64,000 nucleotides of DNA from Longimicrobiales bacterium (GTDB taxonomy: Bacteria; Gemmatimonadota; Gemmatimonadetes; Longimicrobiales; Gaopeijiaceae): positions 62,001-126,000 of the forward strand of contig JAPKBW010000003.1 in NCBI GenBank assembly GCA_028823235.1, given 5' to 3'. Made by a program: the position numbers and the translations under genes. The notes under the pieces were generated by a model. The model made no database searches and was not told the origin of the DNA. It was given only the letters and a program-made list of their open reading frames with translations. Positions 14,174 to 20,980 of this stretch are shown here, in pieces; positions within the stretch are counted from its first letter, which is position 1; the number at the start of each line of letters is the position of its first letter.

Positions 14174-15511
14174 TTACCGGCCGAAGCGGCCCTGTCCAAT
14201 GCGTTGCAGGTAGGGATCGGACGGATCACCGATCCCTTCGCCTACAGCCCAGTCGTAGGAGAACAGCACGACACCACCCGCACCGCCCTGTCGTGCTATG
14301 TCGATCATGCCAAGAGTGCCGTCGACTGAGTTCATGTAGGCGCCGATCCCGGCCCACAGCCGGTCCCCATCCCCGGCCGCGTCGGCTGCGACCTGTATCA
14401 GCGATGCGAATCGGCTGCTGTCCGGCGTGTACGCCATGGGGACGGCGATATCTATGAGGCCGTCCCGTAGCCAAGCCGGCCATTCCTGGAAGCGATCGTT
14501 ATACGCGAGATCGGTGTCCGCGATCACAGCGGCAGAGATCATGAGGCGAGGGTTGATCTCCTTGACATCTTGATGAATGCGTCGGACCAGCCGAGTGACA
14601 TTCTCCCGCCGGAAGTCCGCCCAGAGCGTCGGCTCGCCCTCAACGAATGCATACAGATCCGACAAGTAGGCATCGTCGAGTTGCTCGAACCGTGCCGGAG
14701 TCAGTGGCGCACGGGCCCATAGCCGGAACCGTTCGAGCGCACCAATGGAGTAGTCATACTGTCCGGACGGGAAGCGGATGTAGTCGTAATGAATGCCATC
14801 CAGGTTGTAACGGGTTGCAAGATCGAGCCAGACCGCGCGCACACGGTCCTGTACCTCCGGATGCGACGGGCTCGAATACACACCCTCGACCGTATCGGGG
14901 TTGTCCCGAGCGTACTGAACCAGCGCGGCCACGAAGCGATCGTCGAACGGATCCACCGGGAGTAACTGTTGGCCAAGGTCCCTGGGAACGGCCAACCAGT
15001 CCGGATGCGCGTTCACGAGGTGATCCGGGCTCTCTGGCAACTCCGCAGGTCCCCACACGAGGTGGGTGTTCACCCAGGCATGGACCGCCATGCCCCGGTT
15101 GTGCGCCAAATCAATAGCCAACTCAAGTGGGTCGAAGTCCGGCTCACGCACAGATTCCCCGCGCGGCTCAAGCTCCGAGGAGTAAAACGCATCCGCCCGT
15201 CCGCGCACCTGCACGAGGAGCGTGTTGATGCCCGCGGCCTCGGCATTCTCCACCATCTCGGTAACGGCCTCAGCACTCGTCATCGTATACCGCACGACCC
15301 AGACCGCTCTCACTTCGTCGAAGGAGCGGACCGGATCCACCGTCGGCCCGACCGCGTCGGGCATGCCCGACGCCTCATTCGGTAGAGGCCGTGAGGGCGC
15401 GGCCTCCGGTTGGGTCGTGCTCGGCGTCGGCCGCTGGGGTCCCACCAGCGTGCACCCGGCTGCGAGCAGCAAGAGTGCCAGCGCCACTTTCGGGGCGAAA
15501 GCTGACCTCAT
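14174..15511 (-). CDS. glycoside hydrolase-like (GHL10/DUF187) lipoprotein
   Basis: A 445-residue lipoprotein. The lipobox LLAAGC gives a lipidated Cys20, then a Pro/Ser-rich linker leads to the GHL10 (YngK-like) TIM barrel. Barrel motifs include EVRAVWVVRYTM, GINTLLVQVRGRADAFYSS, HNRGMAVHAWVNTHLVWG, NLDGIHYDYIRFPSGQYDYS and the late WAGIGAYMN. Members act, or are predicted to act, on cell-surface or peptidoglycan-type glycans; the true substrate is unknown. It overlaps the upstream tadA stop by four bases. Confidence 0.88.
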   Translation of the reverse strand: MRSAFAPKVALALLLLAAGCTLVGPQRPTPSTTQPEAAPSRPLPNEASGMPDAVGPTVDPVRSFDEVRAVWVVRYTMTSAEAVTEMVENAEAAGINTLLVQVRGRADAFYSSELEPRGESVREPDFDPLELAIDLAHNRGMAVHAWVNTHLVWGPAELPESPDHLVNAHPDWLAVPRDLGQQLLPVDPFDDRFVAALVQYARDNPDTVEGVYSSPSHPEVQDRVRAVWLDLATRYNLDGIHYDYIRFPSGQYDYSIGALERFRLWARAPLTPARFEQLDDAYLSDLYAFVEGEPTLWADFRRENVTRLVRRIHQDVKEINPRLMISAAVIADTDLAYNDRFQEWPAWLRDGLIDIAVPMAYTPDSSRFASLIQVAADAAGDGDRLWAGIGAYMNSVDGTLGMIDIARQGGAGGVVLFSYDWAVGEGIGDPSDPYLQRIGQGRFGR

Positions 15512-15957
15512 CGGCGCGCCTTGAAGAACGTCTTGAGCATGGAGGAAGCTTCTTCAGCGCGAATACCGGTCACGATTTCGCAGCGGTGATTGAGTCGATC
15601 ATCCTGAAGGAGGTTGTTCAGCGATCCTCCCATGCCAGCCTTTGGGTCGCGGGTCGCAAAGACAACCCGAGGAATTCGGGCGAGTACGATTGCACCCGCG
15701 CACATCGCGCATGGCTCGAGCGTGACATAGAGCGTCGTGTCGAGCAGTCGCCAGTCTCCTTCGACTTTCCCGGCCGAACGAATCGCAACGACCTCAGCGT
15801 GCGCCGTGGGGTCCGAATCCCTGACCGTGCGATTCGCCCCCTCAGCGAGTATCGCCCCGCCTCGAACAAGAACCGCACCGACGGGAACTTCACCGACAGC
15901 TTCAGCCGCTCGCGCGAGATCAAGGGCGTGCGACATCCACGAATCGTGTGTGGCCAA
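15508..15957 (-). CDS. tadA: tRNA-specific adenosine deaminase TadA
   Basis: Deaminates A34 to inosine in tRNA-Arg(ACG). At 149 residues it has the usual length. Zinc and catalytic residues are intact: HAEV with His53 and Glu55, and PCAMC with Cys83 and Cys86, followed by ARIPRVVFATRDPKAG. The C-terminal LLQDDRLNHRCEIVTGIRAEEASSML is typical of TadA rather than of other cytidine-deaminase-fold enzymes. It heads a two-gene overlap with the GHL10 lipoprotein. Confidence 0.94.
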   Translation of the reverse strand: MATHDSWMSHALDLARAAEAVGEVPVGAVLVRGGAILAEGANRTVRDSDPTAHAEVVAIRSAGKVEGDWRLLDTTLYVTLEPCAMCAGAIVLARIPRVVFATRDPKAGMGGSLNNLLQDDRLNHRCEIVTGIRAEEASSMLKTFFKARR

Positions 15958-16013: not shown

Positions 16014-16736
16014 TCAGTGCGTGGTCAGGTTGACCGTCGAGACCTCCCCCATCCGTCGGTAAAAGCCAGCGACTCGGCCAATCACCCGCATATCGGCATC
16101 GCCAACCAGAGTCATGCCACCGTCCGGCTGAAGCGCCTCAAGGTATACTCCTTTCCCATTGCGAGTCACGCGATGGAAAGCTGACGTGTCTCCAATTTCG
16201 GCGACCACCACACTCCCGTCGACGATGTCCTCGACGTTCACCGGTGACACCAGCACTAGGTCGCCCTCTGTCACGCCGAGGACCGCCAGATCACCCACCC
16301 TGGCTCGGACCATAAACGATCCGTCTTCGCTGCCCAACTGTCGATCCATCGAAAAGTAGGTGTCGGCGCTCCGCATGCCCCCACTCGTCGGCACATCGGT
16401 AAAGCACGGTACGGCGACGGTATCGGCGCTGAGGTCGACCCCCAGGATCTTGACCCCCCGTGACCGCGATGGGTCTCGCTCAAGACAACCCTTGTCGGCC
16501 AGCGCCTGCAGGTGTTCAGAAACCGTCCTGGTGCTCTTGATCGCAAAGCGCTCGCAGATCTCGCGGATCGACGGCTGATAGGTGTTTGCCCTCAGGTAAC
16601 TCACCATGAAATCGAGGATCTTCCGCTCAATCTCGTTGAGTGGTTCGACCTGGCGACTTGTGGCCGGGACTTCGCGCTGGGTTATGGCGTCAGATCTAGC
16701 CAACAAACAAACACTTGGAGGAGGGCATTGGGGCAC
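16014..16736 (-). CDS. LexA-like repressor lacking the autoprotease dyad
   Basis: A 240-residue protein with a LexA winged-helix domain (residues 33-95: NEIERKILDFMV, PSIREICERFAIKSTRTVSEHLQALADKG, SRGVKILG) and an S24-like C-terminal domain. Aligned by eye to E. coli LexA, the catalytic Ser119 position holds Asp149 (RVGDL in place of GMSM). The Lys156 position holds His188 (AFHRV in place of TVKRL). The Ala-Gly cleavage bond region reads TSGG. The protein therefore probably dimerises and binds operators but cannot self-cleave. A promoter lies directly upstream, and an AGGTG five bases before the ATG supports this start. It could be a LexA paralogue under another signal; calling it the SOS regulator would be unsafe. 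Confidence 0.85.
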   Translation of the reverse strand: MPQCPPPSVCLLARSDAITQREVPATSRQVEPLNEIERKILDFMVSYLRANTYQPSIREICERFAIKSTRTVSEHLQALADKGCLERDPSRSRGVKILGVDLSADTVAVPCFTDVPTSGGMRSADTYFSMDRQLGSEDGSFMVRARVGDLAVLGVTEGDLVLVSPVNVEDIVDGSVVVAEIGDTSAFHRVTRNGKGVYLEALQPDGGMTLVGDADMRVIGRVAGFYRRMGEVSTVNLTTH

Positions 16737-16756: not shown

Positions 16757-16786
16757 ATCCTAATGTGCGCTTCGGAAACGTGTCAA
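16757..16786 (-). promoter_or_regulatory. sigma70-type promoter for the LexA-like gene
   Basis: On the minus strand, TTGACA (16781-16786) and TAGGAT (16757-16762) are separated by 18 bases. The expected start of transcription is near 16750, giving a leader of about 14 bases to the ATG at 16736. I found no convincing LexA-type palindrome over it. Confidence 0.6.
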
Positions 16787-16798
16787 GAACACTCTTTC

Positions 16799-18229
16799 TC
16801 AGGCCGATCGGATACGCTCCACCCCACTCGCAATGCGCTGGATCACTCGCTCGCGGCCAAGCAGTACCAGGACGTCAAAGATCCCGGGGCTCGCCATGTT
16901 GCCTGTGAGCGCAACGCGGAGCGGATGGATGAGCTTTCCCGCACCCATTTCCATCTCAGCCGCAAGGCCACGGAGACGTTCTTCGAGGACCTCATGCTTC
17001 CACTCAGCGTCCTCAAATGCCGCGTGAAGGCGGAGCAGACGCTCAATCGCAGCCTCAGGGTCCTTTCGCCACTGCTTCTCGACCGCTTTCTCGTCAAAGT
17101 TGAGATCCGAGCACAGGAATGGGTGAGCCTGAGCGACGAGTTCGTCCAGCGTTCGGGCGCGAACCTTAATAACCTCGAGAAGGGCATCGACCCACGGAGC
17201 GTCGTCGAGTCGATCGACGTCACACACCTGTCCTTCAAGTCCGGCCCTGATGTAGTCACACAGTTCCGGAGACTGTCGAGCGGAGAGATGCCGCCCGTTC
17301 AGCCACTGGAGCTTCTCGATATCGAAGACCGATCCCGACTTGAGAAGCCGGTCCGAGCTGAACGCTTCGATGAGCTCTTCGGCGGTCATGAACTCCCGAT
17401 CATCGCCGGGGCTCCACCCCAGCAACGCCAGAAAATTTACCATCGCCTCTGGGAGGATGCCCTCGTTCGCGTACTCGCCGACCGCGGTCACTCCATGTCG
17501 CTTGGATAGCTTCTTTCCGTCCTGTCCAAGAATCATCGGTACATGCATGAACGTCGGCTCTGGGTATCCCAGAGCGCGAGACAGCAACACTTGCTTGGGT
17601 GTATTGGAGAGATGGTCGTCGCCCCGCAGGACGTGCGTGATCCGCTGATGCGCATCATCGGAGACAACCGCCAGGTTGTAGACCGGGCTCCCGTCCGACC
17701 GAAGGATCACCAGGTCGTCGACATCATCGTTCCCGAACCGCATTTCGCCGTGCACGAGATCGGTGAAGAGCGTCTCACCGTCCGGCACACGGAATCGGAC
17801 CGCGAACCCCTCACCAGCGTCGGCACGGCGGACCGCCTCGTCGAAGCCAAGGGCATCGGCCTCCTCCCTGGCGACACGGCTAGGGTGCATCCCTCGCTCC
17901 TGAGCCTCAGCTCGTACTGCATCGGGGTCGGAGAAATCGCGATATGCTTTCCCTTCGTCGAGCAGGCGAAGTGCGTCCGCCCGATGGCGCTCTACGCCTT
18001 CGCTCTGGAAAAAGGGGCCCTCGTCCCAGTCCGTACCCAGCCAGTTCATGCCGTCGAGGATGGCACGGGTGTGTTCGTCGCTCGAGCGCGCCTTGTCAGT
18101 ATCTTCGATCCTGAGGATGAAGACACCACCTTCTTTTTTGGCGAGCAGCCAGTTGAAAATCGCCGTGCGGGCGCCACCGACGTGCAGATACCCCGTCGGC
18201 GACGGGGCAAAGCGAAGTCGCATCGTCAC
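16799..18229 (-). CDS. gltX: glutamate--tRNA ligase
   Basis: A 476-residue class I synthetase. The ATP-binding HIGH-type motif is PSPTGYLHVGGARTAIFNWL and the KMSKS-type motif is KKLSKRHG. RIEDTD and the helical anticodon-binding C-terminal domain follow in the expected order. The GTG start overlaps the glnS stop by four bases; an ATG two codons later is equally possible. Because a GlnRS is encoded next to it, this enzyme probably charges only tRNA-Glu. Confidence 0.95.
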   Translation of the reverse strand: MTMRLRFAPSPTGYLHVGGARTAIFNWLLAKKEGGVFILRIEDTDKARSSDEHTRAILDGMNWLGTDWDEGPFFQSEGVERHRADALRLLDEGKAYRDFSDPDAVRAEAQERGMHPSRVAREEADALGFDEAVRRADAGEGFAVRFRVPDGETLFTDLVHGEMRFGNDDVDDLVILRSDGSPVYNLAVVSDDAHQRITHVLRGDDHLSNTPKQVLLSRALGYPEPTFMHVPMILGQDGKKLSKRHGVTAVGEYANEGILPEAMVNFLALLGWSPGDDREFMTAEELIEAFSSDRLLKSGSVFDIEKLQWLNGRHLSARQSPELCDYIRAGLEGQVCDVDRLDDAPWVDALLEVIKVRARTLDELVAQAHPFLCSDLNFDEKAVEKQWRKDPEAAIERLLRLHAAFEDAEWKHEVLEERLRGLAAEMEMGAGKLIHPLRVALTGNMASPGIFDVLVLLGRERVIQRIASGVERIRSA

Positions 18230-20598
18230 AAATCAAGCCTTTGTGCCAGAATGGTGCGAACGACCGCAGGGTCCGCGGCGCCGCGTGTTGCTTTCATAAC
18301 CTCACCAACGAAGAGTCCGACAAGGTTCTTACGTCCCCCACGATACTCTTCGACCTTGGCAGGCCAGGCTGCCAGCACTTCATTGACCACCTCACCAAGC
18401 GCACCTTCGTCGGAGACCGCTCCCAGGCCCATCTCCTCGACGAGGCTCGCCGGATCCCCACCAGATTCCGCCATCCGAGCGAGAACATCCTTCGCCGCGC
18501 GGCGTGACACCGACCCTTCCGCGGTCAGTCCGACCAGCCGCCCCAATGCCACTCCGTCAAATGGCAACTCCGTCAGCGTGCGCCCGCTCAGGAGAGCGCG
18601 CACATCCGTGACCAGCCAGGACGCTACGGTCTGGGGGGCGGCAAGAGTGATCGCCGCCTCGAAGAAGTCACCAACACCTCGCGTGCCCGTCAGCAGGTCC
18701 GCGTGCTCTTCACTCAGCCCCAACTGGGATGTGTAGCGTGTGAACCGGTCCGCGAGCACCTCATCCTGCTCCCGCGCCTCGACTCGCTCATGACTCATCT
18801 GGGGCCGGACAGAGGCTGCTCGCTCTCCCGCGCCAGGTTTCGTCTTCTGCAAGTCGCTGGCGTCCTTCCCGTCTGCCAGTGCGGGGTTCGTCGCCTGGGT
18901 CTTCTGAGCCCCGTGATAGGAACTCTTCAGGCCGACGATCCGGTTGAAGACCAACCTGTCCTCTGCCCCATCCACTGGGTCGCGCCAAAAATATCCCGTG
19001 CGCTCAAACTGATAACGCGTCGCAACCTCATCGCTGGCGACCGACGGCTCGATCCGAGCGCCTTCCACGACCGTGAGCGAGTCCGGATTCACTCGGTCCA
19101 CTGGGTCGATCGAACCGCCATCGACATCCTCCGAGTCTTCGTCGAGGAAGAGGGGCGAGAACAGACGCACCTCGGCCACTCGGGCCTCAGGGGCCGAGAC
19201 CCACTGAATCGTCCCCTTCACCTTCCGACCGTCCTGCGTGTTTCCGCCCTTCGTAGCAGGGTCGTAAGTGCAATGAAGTTCTTTCACCACACCGGTTTCG
19301 TCGTGAATGACGGATTCACACCGAACGACATAGGCATACCTCAGACGGACCTCGCCACCGGGCACCAGTCGGCGAAACCCCTTCGGGGGGTCTTCTGCGA
19401 AGTCACTTCGCTCGATCCACAGCTCTCGCGAGAACGGAACCTCACGTGAGCCCTCCGCGGCGATGTCATGCGGGAAGTACGGCGCGTCGAAGATCTCTGT
19501 CTCACTCTCCGGGAAGTTCGTAAGCACGACCTTGAGCGGGTCGAGCACGGCCATCACCCTAGGTGCGACAGGGTTGAGGACTCCTCGGATCGCGTAGTCG
19601 AGCTTCGACTCCTCCGTGCGCCCGCCCGAGCGAGAGACTCCTACGATCTTCGCCAACCGCCGAATCGCCTCGGCGGGGATGCCTCGACGCCTCCAGGCCG
19701 CGATGGTCGCCAAGCGGGGATCGTCCCAGCCCGACACGATCCCTGCCGCAACTAGGGGCAGAATTGCCCGCTTGGACAGCACAGCATACTGGAGATCCAG
19801 GCCCGCCCATTCGTACTGGTGCGGTCGCGGTTCCTCGTAACCCACGCTCTCGAGAACCCAGTCATACAATTCACGGTTATTCTCGAACTCGATTGTGCAG
19901 ATCGAGTGGGTCACGCCCTCGAAGGCGTCCTCAAGGCAGTGCGCATAGTCGTACAGCGGGTAAATGCACCAGGAATCCCCCTGTCGAAAATGCTCGACAT
20001 GTCGAATCCGGTAGAGAATTGGGTCACGCATGAGCATGTTCGGATGGCCCATGTCGATGCGCCCACGGAGCACGTGCGTGCCGTCCGCAAACTCCCCTGC
20101 CTTCATCCGCGCGAAGAGATCGAGGTTCTCCTCCACCGAGCGATCGCGGAATGGCGAATCAGTCCCGGTCTCGGTCACCGATCCTCGCCCCTTGCGGACC
20201 GCCTCGAGCGGCTGTGAGTCGACGTACGCCAGCCCCTTCTGAATGAGCGTCACCGCACAGTCGTACATGCGCTCAAAGAAGTCCGAGGCGTAGTAGAGAT
20301 TTTCGCCCCAGTCGAAACCGAGCCAACGAATGTCCTCTTGGATGGCTCGAGCGAACTCCTCGGCCTCCTTCTCCGGATTGGTGTCGTCATAGCGGAGGTG
20401 GCACTGGCCGCCGAAGTCCTCGGCAATGCCAAAGTTGAGGCAAATCGCAGTGGCGTGCCCTACATGGAGATAGCCGTTGGGCTCAGGAGGAAAGCGGGTC
20501 GCAACCCGTCCCCCGTACGCACCCGATTCCATATCGGCGCGCACCTTCTGGCGAATGAAGTCAGTCCCGGTTGCCGGGGTGCTCGTCGTGTCGTCCAT
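18226..20598 (-). CDS. glnS: glutamine--tRNA ligase with C-terminal YqeY/GatB-like domain
   Basis: About 790 residues, longer than the E. coli enzyme (about 550). The catalytic core has RFPPEPNGYLHVGHATAIC near residue 40, RYDDTNPEKE and the KMSKS-type VLSKR, then the two beta-barrel anticodon-binding domains. After about residue 625 comes a helical domain (SQLGLSEEHADLL...VNEVLAAWPAKVEEYRGGRKNLVGLFVGEVMKATRG) of the YqeY/GatB tail type, which binds the tRNA outer corner and is known from Deinococcus-like GlnRS. The frame continues to a GTG at 20616, but the ATG at 20598 is the natural start. It leads the glnS-gltX pair. Confidence 0.94.
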   Translation of the reverse strand: MDDTTSTPATGTDFIRQKVRADMESGAYGGRVATRFPPEPNGYLHVGHATAICLNFGIAEDFGGQCHLRYDDTNPEKEAEEFARAIQEDIRWLGFDWGENLYYASDFFERMYDCAVTLIQKGLAYVDSQPLEAVRKGRGSVTETGTDSPFRDRSVEENLDLFARMKAGEFADGTHVLRGRIDMGHPNMLMRDPILYRIRHVEHFRQGDSWCIYPLYDYAHCLEDAFEGVTHSICTIEFENNRELYDWVLESVGYEEPRPHQYEWAGLDLQYAVLSKRAILPLVAAGIVSGWDDPRLATIAAWRRRGIPAEAIRRLAKIVGVSRSGGRTEESKLDYAIRGVLNPVAPRVMAVLDPLKVVLTNFPESETEIFDAPYFPHDIAAEGSREVPFSRELWIERSDFAEDPPKGFRRLVPGGEVRLRYAYVVRCESVIHDETGVVKELHCTYDPATKGGNTQDGRKVKGTIQWVSAPEARVAEVRLFSPLFLDEDSEDVDGGSIDPVDRVNPDSLTVVEGARIEPSVASDEVATRYQFERTGYFWRDPVDGAEDRLVFNRIVGLKSSYHGAQKTQATNPALADGKDASDLQKTKPGAGERAASVRPQMSHERVEAREQDEVLADRFTRYTSQLGLSEEHADLLTGTRGVGDFFEAAITLAAPQTVASWLVTDVRALLSGRTLTELPFDGVALGRLVGLTAEGSVSRRAAKDVLARMAESGGDPASLVEEMGLGAVSDEGALGEVVNEVLAAWPAKVEEYRGGRKNLVGLFVGEVMKATRGAADPAVVRTILAQRLDL

Positions 20599-20980
20599 AC
20601 CGAAAAAATGTAGCACATGGTATGTCCACTACAGGGCCCAGACAGCGAAACTCAGCGCAGAGGATCCCTTCCCTGCTCCGATTTCGAACTTCGAGGTCCG
20701 CCAATGACCGAAGAGCGGGTCACATTAACGACCAGCTCTGCAGCGGTCTTCCCCCCTGCCGGGGCAGACCGCAACCCGGAGTCATCCTTTGGGGGCATGG
20801 CTAAGCCTTGTGCCGAGGTATGAACGCGTGACCCGCCGAACGCGGACCGTGGCGCGGAAAGGGCCGAAGCTAGACACTCACTTGAACGAACGATCGGGGC
20901 CGCCCACGTGCTAGTCGTGCTCGGCCGCGATTCCGAGTTGTTAAAAATGGAGGGGATCGCGGGCTAGCACCGTGCCCTGT
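20599..20980. other. gene-free interval with a strong hairpin
   Basis: About 380 bases between glnS and the next minus-strand stop hold no convincing coding frame on either strand. The clearest structure is a hairpin at 20743-20772. GCGGTCT pairs with AGACCGC and encloses an inner CCCC/GGGG stem with TGCC at the tip. It has no T tract. The interval contains the glnS promoter region by position, but I cannot name the elements. I compared it mentally with SRP, 6S, tmRNA and RNase P RNA signatures and saw none. Confidence 0.4.

Follow-up and report, generated by a model that had tools for sequence, protein, structure and literature searches.

A LexA paralogue lacking the self-cleavage residues beside gltX in the Gemmatimonadota

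The LexA of Synechocystis sp. PCC 6803, in which Ser119 is replaced by Asp and the Ala-Gly bond by Gly-Gly, regulates non-SOS genes without being cleaved (PMC3091678, PMC7567884). This protein of one cyanobacterium is the best-documented non-cleavable LexA that we found in the literature. The LexA2 of Leptospira interrogans retains Ser130 and Lys166 together with a Cys-Gly bond, is encoded in a prophage-like region and is depleted after UV-C (PMC3789691). In Streptococcus pyogenes, the signal-peptidase-like protein SipA is catalytically dead, with Asp48 in place of Ser and Gly85 in place of Lys (PMC12984324). Among the papers searched, LexA in Gemmatimonas yielded only a community survey.

Here we describe a LexA paralogue, LexA2 (gene lexA2), encoded in the window, the whole 64,000-nucleotide stretch of DNA that was analysed; the other LexA of the same genome is referred to as LexA1. 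The closest parallel to LexA2 is the Synechocystis LexA, as both have Asp at Ser119 and have lost Ala-Gly. Unlike the Synechocystis protein, which is treated as that organism's LexA, LexA2 coexists with an intact LexA1, has also lost Lys156, and its predicted non-cleavable state is fixed in a whole family. The Leptospira protein is likewise a divergent second LexA in one genome but keeps the Ser-Lys dyad that LexA2 lacks. SipA shares a Ser-to-Asp change as a dead member of the LexA/signal peptidase superfamily, but it belongs to the signal-peptidase family and serves pilus polymerisation rather than acting as a DNA-binding regulator. We consider it reasonably likely that LexA2 is a non-cleavable, probably constitutive DNA-binding regulator outside RecA control that descends from a self-cleaving ancestor.

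Domains and lost cleavage residues of LexA2

The gene and its main features are as follows; f1 denotes the window's family, f2 its sister family and f7 a more distant family, and families f3 and f9 were also covered.

16014..16703, minus strand: lexA2, encoding a LexA paralogue of 229 aa, with a TTG start kept among relatives
16437..16646, minus strand: LexA winged-helix DNA-binding domain, residues 20-89 (PF01726; 1lea; family identity 0.82)
16050..16415, minus strand: catalytically dead LexA/S24-type C-terminal domain, residues 97-218 (PF00717; Z 11-13 to LexA C-domains)
16383..16388, minus strand: Thr106-Ser107, replacing the Ala84-Gly85 scissile bond (HHalign, alignment)
16290..16292, minus strand: Asp138, replacing catalytic Ser119 (HHalign; column D or E in 58/80 f1 sequences)
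16173..16175, minus strand: His177, replacing catalytic Lys156 (HHalign; column H, Y or F in 71/80 f1 sequences)

The open reading frame at 16014-16736 on the minus strand, which the initial annotation assigned to a LexA homologue, is real, and both LexA domains are matched. Its start moves from the GTG at 16736 to the TTG at 16703, 11 codons downstream and common to the orthologues, most likely giving a protein of 229 aa. Counted from this shared start, the residues discussed here are Asp138 (earlier 149), His177 (earlier 188) and Thr106-Ser107. LexA2 matches the Pfam profiles PF01726 LexA_DNA_bind (E 2.7e-18) and PF00717 Peptidase_S24 (E 6.7e-9), and its score of 114.2 bits against the TIGR00498 lexA equivalog lies above the curated cut-off of 110.95.

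An AlphaFold2 model of LexA2 (pLDDT 81.4) was compared with known structures. The full-length model aligns with LexA 3jsp_B (Z 14.4, 190 aligned residues, rmsd 5.6), its C-domain with 8b0v_A (Z 12.9, 117 residues, rmsd 3.0) and its DNA-binding domain with 1lea (Z 11.1, 71 residues, rmsd 1.9); the high rmsd of the full-length matches probably reflects domain orientation. The good LexA winged helix recognised at the outset is thus seen both in the PF01726 match and in the fit of the model to 1lea, and the suggestion that the LexA fold is kept agrees with the predicted model, which matches LexA along its length. Like canonical LexA, represented by the E. coli protein and LexA1, LexA2 combines a winged helix with an S24-type C-domain. 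Descent and fold place LexA2 in the LexA family, whereas catalytic function does not.

The initial annotation had placed Asp at the position of Ser119, His at that of Lys156 and TSGG at the Ala-Gly bond, and all three assignments are borne out by profile alignment, with Thr106-Ser107 falling at Ala84-Gly85. When the 80-member f1 profile is compared by HHalign with the intact orthologues (E 1.8e-79, prob 100), Asp falls on Ser119 and His on Lys156, and comparison with E. coli LexA plus LexA1 (E 3.6e-28) yields the identical residue pairing. The alignment is ungapped between the Ser119 site and the next G-D, and three residues are deleted after the bond position. An alternative alignment with Ser or Lys in a dyad position is rejected on the basis of these two profile-profile comparisons and the 80 orthologues. 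As the dyad is missing in every one of the 80 distinct f1 orthologues, a chance absence is excluded as well.

The proposed loss of RecA-stimulated self-cleavage is therefore well supported at the level of sequence: nucleophile, base and bond are all missing from LexA2, the dyad is missing throughout f1, and a complete second LexA is present. With all three parts gone, RecA should be unable to trigger self-cleavage, and LexA2 should persist during SOS. Only the window's closer relatives typically combine Asp with His. We rejected the idea that this pair is specially conserved, as the Ser and Lys columns rank only 74th and 66th of the 121 C-domain columns; with such ranks for the former catalytic columns, no new active role is demonstrated for Asp138 or His177.

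Orthologues, history of the dyad and constraint after its loss

LexA2 was found in 132/154 genomes of the order and in 224/394 sampled genomes of the class, spread over f1, f2, f3, f7 and f9. Two neighbours define its locus.

16799..18229, minus strand: gltX, the upstream neighbour (Pfam), whose conserved synteny defines LexA2 orthologues
15508..15957, minus strand: tadA-like deaminase gene, the downstream neighbour (Pfam), conserved in f1, f2, f3 and f9

Among 40 loci inspected, from all five families, gltX adjoins lexA2 in 36; tadA lies downstream in the inspected loci of f1, f2, f3 and f9 and not in those of f7. This gltX-lexA2(-tadA) synteny identifies the LexA2 proteins as positional orthologues, and the window's protein fits the group by its gltX-lexA2 synteny and its STKTVS-type recognition helix. 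LexA2 is an ancient LexA paralogue of this Gemmatimonadota class, fixed beside gltX. A phage or mobile origin of lexA2 is disfavoured by the conserved gltX-tadA locus. Adjoining gltX, window positions 18226-20616 encode a glutaminyl-tRNA synthetase of 796 aa with a C-terminal GatB/Yqey domain. ARAGORN predicts a tRNA-Gln(CTG) gene immediately upstream of lexA2, next to the gltX region, in two f3 genomes (L061:4880-4954 (+) and L062:5620-5693 (-)).

Among the orthologues, 17/17 from f2 (all with Ala-Gly) and 21/33 from f7 carry the Ser-Lys dyad, against 0/80 from f1, 0/9 from f3 and 0/6 from f9, one of the two residues being kept in some f3 and f9 sequences. Mapped onto a gltX tree covering 81 loci, the dyad changes state at least 5 times by parsimony. 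Because regain of the dyad is unlikely, we read these changes as losses, a direction that goes beyond parsimony itself, and cleavage seems to have been lost repeatedly within the phylum. The f2 and f7 orthologues that carry the dyad presumably still cleave.

Such repeated loss of the cleavage parts, together with a divergent C-domain, could be taken to mark LexA2 as a redundant paralogue heading for loss. LexA1 is present and a LexA2 match is absent in genomes G039-G041 (g7), G095 and G058, the g7 genomes being small (2.0 Mb), and the lack of a lexA2 match in some f1 members, which also fits such decay, makes the gene seem dispensable. Against this, dN/dS lies far below 1 in both halves, with values for the DNA-binding domain mostly of 0.0-0.16 (up to 0.39 in a few pairs) and for the C-domain of about 0.05-0.5, always <1. 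The DNA-binding domain is highly conserved, with a mean pairwise identity within f1 of 0.82 vs 0.40 for the C-terminal half, and promoter and locus are conserved across genera. We therefore regard decay as highly improbable; the dN/dS values also disfavour lexA2 as a pseudogene. The C-terminal half of LexA2 is under purifying selection, and this selection and the hyperconserved DNA-binding half support continued DNA binding, as judged from substitution patterns.

The clearest new constants in f1 are Gly128 and a cysteine close to the former cleavage site.

16404..16406, minus strand: Cys100, in the motif V-P-C-F immediately ahead of the dead cleavage loop (79/80 f1 sequences; 2/38 intact orthologues)

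Being nearly invariant in a family that lost cleavage, Cys100 is the main candidate for a signal residue. One possibility, to which we give a low probability, is that in f1 LexA2 the former cleft and Cys100 were turned into a switch of DNA binding: Cys100 and the acidic/aromatic pair at the old catalytic positions would read a thiol, metal or small-molecule signal, making the protein a reversible ligand or redox sensor that neither undergoes cleavage nor takes part in SOS. The near-invariance of Cys100 is in keeping with this, as are the single cysteine in 50/80 trimmed f1 sequences and the acidic residue in the old Ser position (58/80) and the His, Tyr or Phe in the old Lys position (71/80). 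SipA, a related dead fold, also has Asp at the Ser position (PMC12984324), and the Synechocystis LexA may be controlled by modification (PMC7567884). However, covariation of Cys100 with cleavage loss across independent lineages was not significant, and Cys100 is a clade feature of f1; it may be a packing residue only, and the neighbourhood of tRNA synthetases and a deaminase suggests no ligand or partner gene. The window's LexA2 has two more cysteines, at residues 50 and 73, both in the DNA-binding half; the first of these, Cys50, stands where Gly is nearly invariant and occurs in none of the aligned relatives (A1).

DNA recognition, promoter and the intact LexA1

The search for a second, complete LexA that the initial annotation proposed turned up LexA1 at G000:C14. 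It is the only other LexA of the genome, has intact VAAG, GNSM and ATVKKL motifs and, by eye, is encoded between trpD-like and trpC-like genes. LexA1 occurs in 138/150 genomes of the order; 26/29 parsed copies carry all three motifs in strict form, and the other three each miss one strict pattern. Unlike LexA2, LexA1 still has Ala-Gly, Ser and Lys, and its promoter contains two TTCGG-N6-TTCGG direct repeats. In its own genome this repeat occurs at 17 sites vs 3 in a reversed control. Its neighbours include lexA1 and an imuB-like Y-family polymerase gene (two sites each), a PHP/DNA polymerase III alpha gene, ribonucleotide reductase and mraZ. LexA1 presumably binds these sites. In relatives, recA is preceded by a related repeat, TTCG-N7-TTCGG (L263-L278). 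A candidate direct-repeat SOS box of this form, with an 11-bp period, was noted at the promoters of lexA1, the imuB-like gene, DNA polymerase III alpha, ribonucleotide reductase, mraZ and recA, at L199 (G000:C14), L232, L234, L238, L241 and the recA loci. Its geometry resembles what we take to be the alphaproteobacterial GTTC-N7-GTTC box.

The corresponding elements of lexA2 are its recognition helix and its promoter.

16488..16535, minus strand: recognition helix region, S57-G72, STRTVSEHLQALADKG (family consensus STKTVSEHL), nearly invariant in LexA2
16757..16762, minus strand: -10 element TAGGAT of the lexA2 promoter, in many f1 orthologues, with an 18-bp spacer
16781..16786, minus strand: -35 element TTGACA of the same promoter, kept in much of f1

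The LexA1 recognition helix, SLATVHEHL, differs from that of LexA2 at E. coli LexA positions 41 and 44. At positions 39, 41, 42, 44 and 45, which we take to be those that contact bases in the LexA-DNA complex, LexA1 has S, A, T, H and E, and the LexA2 consensus is S, K, T, S and E, with Arg at 41 in the window's protein. As two of the five contact positions differ from LexA1, LexA2 likely recognises a different operator.

LexA2 might instead limit SOS induction, binding LexA1's TTCG-type boxes or forming mixed dimers as the non-cleavable partner. We think this unlikely, though less so than a sensor role. The two proteins coexist in most genomes of the order, their recognition helices carry the same residues at the sites equivalent to Ser39, 42 and Glu45, and one type of direct-repeat box is seen at SOS-type promoters, that of recA included. 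Yet contact positions 41 (Lys/Arg vs Ala) and 44 (Ser vs His) differ consistently, an identity of 25% between LexA1 and LexA2 makes mixed dimers less likely, and lexA2 itself is without a TTCG-type box.

The promoter proposed at 16757-16786 holds up, as that interval spans exactly the -10 to the -35 element. This TTGACA-N18-TAGGAT arrangement is near-consensus, is kept across f1 genera and looks unusually strong for a regulator gene. Expression of lexA2 from it is probably constitutive. The TTCGG-N6-TTCGG box was not found at the lexA2 promoter, and by inspection the regions upstream of lexA2 in f1, f2 or f7 share neither a palindrome nor a direct repeat. The conserved block GCACATTAGGATAG falls within the promoter, and a genome scan allowing <=2 mismatches gave no additional strong copies of it (6 matches vs 5 in the control). 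The stretch before the TTG start (window 16703-16730) is C-rich, reading CCCTCCTCC in the window and GCCCCCCCTCC in relatives, with no obvious Shine-Dalgarno sequence.

Proposed role of LexA2

Under the reading that we favour, a regulator outside RecA control, the ancestral LexA2 beside gltX was probably self-cleaving and, judged by sequence, would still be so in sister lineages. In f1 it would have become a permanently non-cleavable, DNA-binding and presumably dimeric transcriptional regulator, made constitutively and binding an operator unlike that of LexA1. Its fold points to a repressor role. DNA damage would not remove it, as RecA would have nothing to activate, and its activity may be set by dosage or by another signal acting on the C-domain. 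Loss of the cleavage parts suggests that LexA2 now answers to a signal other than DNA damage.

What is new is that dead and intact positional orthologues form a series while an intact LexA1 is retained. This natural series permits a direct test of the role of a LexA once RecA control is gone, and the clade-wide Cys100 provides a concrete residue for testing. For the family at large, a 'lexA' match above the profile cut-off need not mean an SOS regulator.
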